From positions 1 through 35,610 of the forward strand of contig CANRMD010000020.1 of NCBI GenBank assembly GCA_947631645.1: a DNA stretch of 35,610 bases, read 5' to 3'. This document shows positions 12,871-13,689 of the stretch, in pieces. The translations under genes and the position numbers were made by a program. The DNA comes from Candidatus Gastranaerophilales bacterium (GTDB taxonomy: Bacteria > Cyanobacteriota > Vampirovibrionia > Gastranaerophilales > Gastranaerophilaceae). The stretch's first letter is position 1. Each line of letters opens with the position of its first letter. The notes beneath the pieces were generated by a model. It did not search any database and was not told the origin of the DNA. It worked only from the letters and a program-made list of their open reading frames with translations.

Positions 12871-12899
12871 TTGACAATGTGGTATGTCCTTTATATTAT
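12871..12899 (+). promoter_or_regulatory. Sigma-70 promoter of the tRNA-tuf operon
   Basis: TTGACA (12871-12876), a 17-bp spacer and TATTAT (12894-12899) form a near-consensus promoter. The first tRNA begins 20 bp downstream. It probably drives the tRNAs and perhaps tuf. Confidence 0.85.
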
Positions 12900-12919: not shown

Positions 12920-12991
12920 GCCGGTGTAGCTCAACGGTAGAGCAACGGTTTTGTAAACCGTAGGTTGTAGGTTCGATTCCTATCACCGGCT
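12920..12991 (+). tRNA. tRNA-Thr(TGT)
   Basis: The acceptor stem GCCGGTG pairs with CACCGGC. The anticodon stem ACGGT/ACCGT holds the loop TTTGTAA with anticodon TGT. The T-arm GTTCGATTC is canonical. CCA is not encoded. It is the first gene of the tRNA-tuf cluster. Confidence 0.95.
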
Positions 12992-13020
12992 ATTTATAGA
13001 TTGTACATTATATGAAAAAT

Positions 13021-13103
13021 GGGTAGATGGCCGAGTGGCTAAAGGCGACAGACTGTAAATCTGTTGACGCGAGTCTACGGTGGTTCGAATCCACCTCTGC
13101 CCA
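13021..13103 (+). tRNA. tRNA-Tyr(GTA)
   Basis: The acceptor stem GGGTAGA pairs with TCTGCCC (one G-T pair). The anticodon loop CTGTAAA gives anticodon GTA. A long class II variable arm (GACGCGAGTC region) is present, as in bacterial tRNA-Tyr. CCA is not encoded. Confidence 0.95.
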
Positions 13104-13135
13104 TTTATAATAAGTCGGAAAATCGACTAAAATGA

Positions 13136-13334
13136 GCCCTTGTGGCACTCTGCCGACGACGCTTTAGTCGTAGTTGAGTATAAACGAAACGTACGAATAA
13201 AGTGTGTGCAGACGGCGTAAAAAATCGAACGTAAGTTCTGATTTTTGAGCCGTCCAGCTAAACGATTAAGTATCGTCCGAGGAGAGGAAGCACTCCCGTA
13301 GGGAGTAAGCGGCAACAGGCTCGAAATCAAATGA
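13136..13334 (+). repeat. tRNA-Thr-derived repeat, unit A (199 bp, expanded)
   Basis: This unit begins with the first 11 bases of tRNA-Thr(GGT) (GCCCTTGTGGC) and ends with the same 3' block as units B and C (GAGGAGAGG, the ACTCCC-GTA-GGGAGT hairpin at 13292-13306, and GGCTCGAAATC). Where units B and C have a 21-nt hairpin, this copy has 119 nt (13160-13278). That stretch forms several hairpins: 13156-13171, a long one closed by GACGGC/GCCGTC at 13211-13254, and 13262-13276. The upstream 13104-13135 holds a small AGTCG/CGACT hairpin only. No gene is seen. Confidence 0.8.
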
Positions 13335-13441
13335 GCCCTTGTGGCGTAGTGACTCTGCCGACGAAAAAGATACAGTGTATCTTTTGAGGAGAGGAAGCAC
13401 TCCCGTAGGGAGTAAGCAGCAACAGGCTCGAAATTAAATGA
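13335..13441 (+). repeat. tRNA-Thr-derived tandem repeat, unit B (107 bp)
   Basis: The first 17 bases match the 5' end of tRNA-Thr(GGT) with one change. An inserted hairpin follows (AAAAGATAC-AGT-GTATCTTTT, 13365-13385). Then comes an AGC-ACTCCC-GTA-GGGAG element that matches the tRNA anticodon stem with its 7-nt loop cut to GTA. Last is a GGCTCGAAATC stretch resembling a decayed T-arm. The acceptor 3' strand is missing, so it cannot fold as a normal tRNA. Confidence 0.85.
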
Positions 13442-13548
13442 GCCCTTGTGGCACAGTGACTCTGCCGACGAAAAAGATACAGTGTATCTTTTGAGGAGAG
13501 GTAGCACTCCCGTAGGGAGTAAGCGACAACAGGCTCGAAATCAAATGA
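13442..13548 (+). repeat. tRNA-Thr-derived tandem repeat, unit C (107 bp)
   Basis: This is a nearly identical copy of unit B at exactly 107 bp spacing, directly abutting the intact tRNA-Thr(GGT). It has the same 5' tRNA head (16 of 17 bases), the inserted hairpin at 13472-13492, the truncated anticodon-stem hairpin at 13506-13520 and the T-arm-like tail. It also has GGTAGC before ACTCCC, as in the true tRNA. Confidence 0.85.
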
Positions 13549-13620
13549 GCCCTTGTGGCGCAGTGGTAGCGCACTCCCTTGGTAAGGGAGAGGCCACGGG
13601 TTCAAGTCCCGTCAAGGGCT
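13549..13620 (+). tRNA. tRNA-Thr(GGT)
   Basis: The acceptor stem GCCCTTG pairs with CAAGGGC. The anticodon stem CTCCC/GGGAG holds the loop TTGGTAA, giving anticodon GGT. The T-arm GGGTTCAAGTCCC is canonical. It lies 66 bp upstream of tuf, as thrT does before tufB in E. coli. Confidence 0.95.
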
Positions 13621-13673
13621 TTTAAAATCACCTAAAATAAAAAATAGGATATAGTAGAATAATTACAGAAAAA

Positions 13674-13689
13674 GGAGTTTAAACTCATG
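13674..13689 (+). promoter_or_regulatory. tuf ribosome binding site inside a 12-bp palindrome
   Basis: The GGAG ribosome site (13674-13677) runs into a perfect palindrome GAGTTTAAACTC (13675-13686) that ends directly at the ATG. In RNA it could fold as a 4-bp stem with a TTAA loop and partly mask the site. Any regulatory role is inference. Confidence 0.5.

Follow-up and report, generated by a model that had tools for sequence, protein, structure and literature searches.

Some integrative elements restore the tRNA gene into which they insert, and in the tyrT operon the repeats known as rtT include the 3′ end of the tRNA. Some relatives of rtT belong to the BIMEs, as far as the available parts of the two sources go (PMC2965389, PMC4986893). 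REP, BIME and REPIN sequences are short, dispersed, non-coding palindromes with compensatory changes, which are thought to move as single-strand hairpins (PMC3116915, available in part). Rickettsia palindromic elements occur in one bacterial group, with one family located in a tRNA-fMet spacer (PMC1950309, in its accessible sections), and insertion sequences that target REP hairpins insert into palindromic DNA (PMC1525189, available as excerpts).

In the window, a stretch of 35,610 nucleotides from a Candidatus Gastranaerophilales bacterium, an array of three directly adjoining units is located on the plus strand between tRNA-Tyr and tRNA-Thr(GGT). Unit 1 (13132–13330) has a length of 199 bp, and unit 2 (13331–13437) and unit 3 (13438–13544) have a length of 107 bp each, as determined by repeat alignment. 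The array is preceded by tRNA-Thr(TGT) (12920–12991) and tRNA-Tyr(GTA) (13020–13104), both called by ARAGORN and Rfam, and is followed by the intact tRNA-Thr(GGT) gene which the units copy (13548–13621) and by an ORF starting at 13687, identified as tuf by its similarity to annotated tuf genes; all of these lie on the plus strand. The original prediction of two 107-bp units and one 199-bp unit in tandem, all derived from tRNA-Thr, was confirmed by the alignment and by in-register repeats. Three 107-nt copies are in register, two of them showing 93% and 75% identity to the first, and the last one extends into the real tRNA. A 19-nt repeat, consisting of the short leader and the tRNA 5′ end, is present in four copies with spacings of 199, 107 and 107 nt.

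Each unit opens with the first nucleotides of tRNA-Thr(GGT), and its copy of the D-arm holds a hairpin cassette, here called K. In unit 2 (13352–13394) and unit 3 (13459–13501) the cassette was identified by pattern and covariance model, and unit 1 carries a long K (13147–13287) within which about 106 nt are nested (13160–13265). This nested insert folds strongly within unit 1. Every unit contains the anticodon stem CTCCC/GGGAG with the loop cut to GTA, as had been predicted, the shortened hairpins being read from the sequence at 13292–13306 (ACTCCC-GTA-GGGAGT), 13399–13413 and 13506–13520. The decayed T-arm of the same prediction has to be replaced, since the T-arm is missing and the 3′ part of the unit is a strand (about GCGGCAACAGGCTC) which pairs with the unit's own 5′ end. 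Compared with dinucleotide shuffles, single-strand folding gave z values of −2.8 and −4.4 for the two 107-bp units, −5.8 for unit 1 and −11.3 for the whole stretch of 518 nt. ARAGORN and Rfam (gathering threshold) called only the three real tRNAs and none of the units, which thus do not qualify as functional tRNAs. Rfam reported only tRNA above threshold in the window, with no T-box or other known leader RNA, and gave no match for K or the long K.

A promoter-like site (TTGACA-17-TATTAT, 11/12, plus strand, 12871–12899) was found by consensus matching before the tRNA cluster; by the same approach, three promoter-like sites were found in the region compared with 1.8 expected, and no terminator-like site was found on the plus strand between this site and the units. 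With a promoter-like site before the cluster and no terminator-like site before the units, co-transcription of the units with the tRNAs seems plausible. A TTGAAAACTGAATA-like stretch precedes many tRNAs (L005, L008, L009 and others) and recurs in each unit. We take this stretch to resemble a boxA antitermination site.

The cassette has the form A-CTCT-GCCGA-(variable stem-loop)-G-AGAG-G with about 41 nt, and the copies read range from 38 to 147 nt. The first sets were selected by this exact pattern, so that their end letters are fixed by choice, and the copies found by model show the real spread. The stem of K covaries, with 67 cells showing changes on both sides compared with 20.8 (sd 2.9) after shuffling and 1–3 in slid versions, counted on 94 distinct sequences of 133 rows in an alignment fitted to the structure, which favours covariation. 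The cores vary even within the source genome. A closing stem formed by the left and right flanks of K lies below −12 kcal/mol in 41% of the cases and in 20–22% for three controls, a modest difference, and the same comparison using long flanks was little informative.

The nested insert of about 106 nt was found seven times in 5 of 98 genomes, once in unit 1 and six times elsewhere, always at the same point inside K. Its copies are 93–97% identical to the copy in the window and were found at several tRNA loci of one genus. For six of the seven places the site could be described: two Thr units, one Pro(CGG) unit and one Leu(GAG) unit have a called tRNA, and two further sites are contig ends with no called tRNA, the flanks of which read as Pro and Leu. 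Since one nested insert is common to three tRNA genes, the cassette has passed between loci.

In a search of the source genome with unit 2, mainly the inserted hairpin was matched, on four other contigs, two of which adjoin tRNA-Pro and two of which are contig ends with tRNA-like flanks and no called tRNA. The exact pattern gave nine matches in this genome and none when reversed, and a broader model identified 11 copies. Beyond these, long copies are present in unit 1 and in contig C55, together with a cut copy at the C55 end. The draft consists of 77 contigs, and several K arrays stop at contig edges. The source genome gave 38 tRNA matches. For 30 of its tRNAs the upstream flank was examined as well, and five of these are preceded by K, namely Thr(GGT), Met, Pro(TGG), Pro(GGG) and Leu(CAG).

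In the relatives, the exact pattern was detected in 29 of 98 genomes and the reversed pattern in none of the 98. The first covariance model found K in 53 of these 98 and in 166 of 289 genomes of the class, and the broader covariance model in 127 of 292 genomes sampled from the phylum. All but one of the 127 belong to a single gut family (f1) of the order Gastranaerophilales; the remaining genome (G063) belongs to another family of the order. At least four f1 genomes (G262, G275, G048, G287) gave no match, and nearly every sampled genome of this family has K among the matches listed. The presence of K in 126 genomes of the family, with only four lacking it among the genomes listed, may mean that the cassette has a kept function. 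Among genomes of named species, the exact pattern also occurs in 106 stretches or more, which are labelled Candidatus Gastranaerophilales, Melainabacteria, Cyanobacteria or 'bacterium', except for four named otherwise. Two of the latter (L086, Clostridia; L111, Christensenellaceae) match without a hairpin and were rejected as chance. The contigs named as Muribaculaceae (L052) and Acinetobacter (L094) hold real units beside tRNAs and are probably misbinned. In viral contigs of IMG/VR, the exact pattern gave no match, and no published description of such units in Gastranaerophilales was found in the part of the literature covered.

In a set of 357 distinct contexts of K, which is non-random because many loci come from the exact pattern or from K-rich genomes, 226 have a tRNA on their right that shares the strand of K, so that K lies upstream of the tRNA (at least three of them are not units, L253 being spurious and L076 and L301 being palindrome copies that happen to precede a tRNA). 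In 27 contexts the tRNA to the right is on the opposite strand, so that K lies beyond the tRNA 3′ end; 52 are too near a contig edge and 52 have no tRNA to the right. By reading, 28 of these tRNA-less contexts were assigned to dispersed palindromes of three genomes (G176, G261, G313), in which K lies within one arm of a larger repeat palindrome, and others are tRNA-like units with the tRNA uncalled or not near. The palindromes (GTCATCCTGAGC...GAAGGATCT; L261, L289–L328) occur in dozens of places per genome, and their copies without K show a small side hairpin at the position of K. On contig C35 of the source genome (L404, 1380–1655), K is inserted in a partial antisense copy resembling 5S rRNA, a likeness that was recognised by eye and for which Rfam gives no 5S call. 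This copy is followed by a terminator-like hairpin and by a second 5S-like copy cut by the contig end.

The points at which K is inserted are narrowly distributed. In the 187 readable 5′ units (39 of the 226 were left out as their start was unmatched), K follows tRNA nucleotide 11–12 in 117, nucleotides 17–20 in 47 and nucleotide 8 in 14 units, together 178 of 187, with nine at other positions. In 3′ units the T-arm holds the cassette, except for three copies (L254, L255, L392) with K in the anticodon arm. The 5′ units are mostly found at tRNAs with GCGC-like D stems, i.e., Met, Pro, Thr(GGT), Leu, Val(GAC), Lys(CTT) and Ala(GGC), and the 3′ units mostly at other isotypes, i.e., Phe, Arg, Thr(CGT), Leu(CAA) and Gln, and also at Met and Lys.

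In the tRNA-linked contexts the dead copy is to the left of K and the intact gene to its right. In 224 of 253 cases an 8-mer is common to the left flank of K and the near end of the right-hand tRNA. The reversed arrangement was not found, as none of the 37 tRNAs within 200 nt to the left of K has a 9-mer of its near end in common with the right flank of K; three spurious contexts were dropped in this polarity test. Since the classes are defined by the tRNA to the right of K, the side alone is no test of polarity. The survival of the tRNA alone would allow K to point either way, and the fixed order therefore suggests that the cassette and the copy of the gene end originate together in one polar process. 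The cassette itself, its dispersal, its insertion points and the order of dead copy, K and intact gene are established at the level of sequence comparison.

The orthologous locus, Thr(GGT) followed by tuf, gave a match in 33 of the 41 genomes of the genus that were searched; the set analysed comprises 30 loci, 28 of them readable. Seven of the 28 are empty, with a spacer of 10–34 nt and no unit, 17 contain one to three K by a relaxed pattern (decayed in L337) and four show remnants or are unclear (L340, L342, L345, L354). The two D-loop letters before K (TG or AG) match the tRNA of the same genome in all 17 readable loci, and the anticodon stem (ACTCCC or ATTCCC) does so in 16 of 16, the decayed unit L349 being left out; this agreement was read by eye, and the genomes are related, so that the cases are non-independent. 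The hairpin at this locus differs between genomes and the tRNA-derived flanks keep matching the local tRNA. This agreement indicates that the units are remade from, or corrected by, the local tRNA. Like the shared nested insert, the empty and occupied loci are documented at the level of sequence.

These results bear on the earlier view of the repeats in two ways. Their description as amplified and remodelled pseudo-tRNA copies with an inserted hairpin is supported, with a sequence that follows the tRNA of its own genome. The idea of a device particular to tRNA-Thr, on the other hand, is not supported by the dispersal of the hairpin beside many tRNAs, by copies at tRNA 3′ ends on the opposite strand, in the 5S-like copy and in palindromes, and by the empty loci. 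The proposed link to tRNA-Thr is thus half refuted: the units are missing in some relatives and the hairpin occurs in dispersed places, but its association with tRNA genes as a group is strong.

K is like the REP, BIME and REPIN sequences in behaving as a short dispersed palindromic repeat. It differs from them in residing mainly in partial copies of tRNA ends. With regard to the inverted pair of REPs that makes up a REPIN, no REP doublet was seen; K is a single hairpin, which in G176, G261 and G313 lies in one arm of a larger palindrome. The genomes differ from REPIN hosts, as RAYT is absent in seven of eight tested: a search for the RAYT/Y1 transposase (PF01797) gave none in the source genome, G025, G176, G261, G313, G054 and G125, and three in G045. 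With regard to MITE features, the ends of K are only CTCT/AGAG, the tRNA end is duplicated with varying length, and no partner transposase was found. The units resemble the rtT repeats in being tRNA-derived repeats within a tRNA operon, but they contain K and are copied from the 5′ end of the tRNA (or, on the other strand, from its 3′ end), and the region 13100–13625 gave no match to RtT when searched against all 4227 Rfam families with E values up to 10. As with the tRNA-restoring integrative elements, a tRNA end is regenerated beside the insert, but the units have no integrase or cargo, comprise 100–200 bp and are partial copies at either end. K shares with the Rickettsia palindromic elements its palindromic nature and its confinement to one bacterial group; it is shorter, and partial tRNA copies are not described for those elements in the accessible sections of the source (PMC1950309). 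Insertion into palindromic DNA is shared with the insertion sequences that target REP hairpins, which carry a transposase gene, whereas K is non-coding and has about 41 nt.

The hairpin cassette is family-wide, and the window contains a well-preserved array of it. K does not seem to be tied to one particular tRNA but has the appearance of an undescribed mobile hairpin of DNA, and has most likely spread at the DNA level. On balance we lean towards the units being by-products of a small mobile, or conversion-spread, cassette of one gut family of Gastranaerophilales. In this process, K would settle in the hairpin arm of an RNA gene that lies nearest to the gene end, which is the D-arm if it enters at the 5′ side and the T-arm if it enters at the 3′ side, and sometimes in the anticodon arm. 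In the same or a tied event the gene end would be re-copied, leaving the dead partial copy and K outside and the intact gene inside, and tandem units would arise later by recombination between the copies of the tRNA end. The cause would be DNA movement, by template switching or by hairpin-directed insertion on one strand, and the fixed order along the K strand at either tRNA end would be the trace of the insertion and re-copying step. That K represents a new type of mobile DNA, a single-strand hairpin cassette which enters the arms of tRNA genes, a 5S-like sequence and palindromes and re-copies the gene end in the same step, allowing the gene to survive, is a more tentative proposal, possible rather than probable. 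The covariation of the K stem and the antisense of the units to their own tRNA count against a mobile origin, since a pure parasite need not have either. The absence of RAYT from most genomes tested, the wide presence of K in the family, the non-uniform cores within the source genome and the choice of many loci by an exact pattern also weigh on that side.

The main alternative is that the units are cis-acting leader RNAs which control tRNA maturation, K binding the signal. The antisense strand of the unit would have two possible partners, the tRNA-like 5′ part of the same unit around K and the 5′ half of the real tRNA, and pairing with the latter would block the tRNA. An exact antisense of at least 8 nt to the 5′ part of the own tRNA was found in 51 of 99 units, compared with 9 of 99 when the tRNA was of another isotype, 3 of 99 for shuffled sequences and 0 of 99 for the 3′ part of the own tRNA. 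In addition, 226 of the 253 tRNA-linked units are upstream on the tRNA strand, and BIMEs placed before a tRNA reporter cause attenuation, according to the available part of the source (PMC2965389). For the 66 unit-tRNA pairs in which the acceptor stem has seven pairs, K is short and the flank is long enough, equilibrium prediction gave an acceptor-stem probability of 0.95 for the tRNA alone, 0.78 with the short leader and 0.14 with the whole unit; the controls were 0.18 with the 3′ part of the unit shuffled and 0.31 with the whole unit shuffled. Partition functions thus predict worse tRNA folding with the real unit than with either shuffle (p 0.002 and p 4e-6, respectively), and the idea that the antisense strand protects the real tRNA from a decoy is not supported. 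A unit predicted to disturb its tRNA argues against a protecting antisense and keeps a leader that sequesters the tRNA under consideration; by the same predictions, the units could be costly to the cell. A leader role nevertheless seems unlikely as the general explanation. About half of the units have no 8-nt antisense run, seven of the 28 Thr loci do without a unit, its folding support is an equilibrium prediction, and the K stems show no strand bias of G-U over A-C pairs (8 vs. 4, p 0.39; 165/176 cores). Moreover, a role as tRNA leader cannot account for every copy, since some lie past the 3′ end of a tRNA on the strand opposite to it and others in the REP-like palindromes and in the 5S-like copy.

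The units might instead be released during tRNA processing as small RNAs acting in trans, a role that has been proposed for the rtT RNA of the E. coli tyrT operon. Stable folds and tandem tRNA-derived repeats within a probable tRNA transcript are consistent with this, as are rtT-like RNAs adjoining tRNA genes, one member of which gave Northern signals (PMC4986893, available part). We consider it improbable, given the missing RtT match even at permissive E values and the variable presence of units at one locus, where their number ranges from 0 to 3. If the end of a tRNA gene had simply been duplicated in tandem and had decayed, with no special element, this would account for tandem units with a 19-bp repeat and for the decayed units in relatives (L337, L340, L342), and it may explain how many copies an array contains. 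As a complete explanation, simple duplication is contradicted by the recurrence of one K at fixed tRNA positions across many isotypes and genomes and by the absence of the reversed pattern from each of the 98 genomes, and it is very hard to maintain. Just as little weight is given to K as a kink-turn which recruits an L7Ae-type protein to tRNA transcripts. The commonest K does show a 3-nt bulge followed by G.A/A.G pairs, as in a kink-turn, but other copies have Watson-Crick pairs at these positions, so the G-A pairs are not kept. For the K family as a whole, the kink-turn was therefore rejected.

Contigs of these metagenome-assembled genomes often end in K arrays, which calls for caution. Should the units be leader RNAs, they would represent a bacterial tRNA leader that follows the downstream tRNA in its sequence, for which no published example was found in a few searches covering part of the literature. 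If the preferred reading of K as a mobile or conversion-spread cassette is true, orthologous loci with zero to three units let the steps of its spread be read, and they would provide a natural system for how DNA hairpins attract insertion and copying. A whole bacterial family would then carry a tiny element which invades essential RNA genes without killing them.
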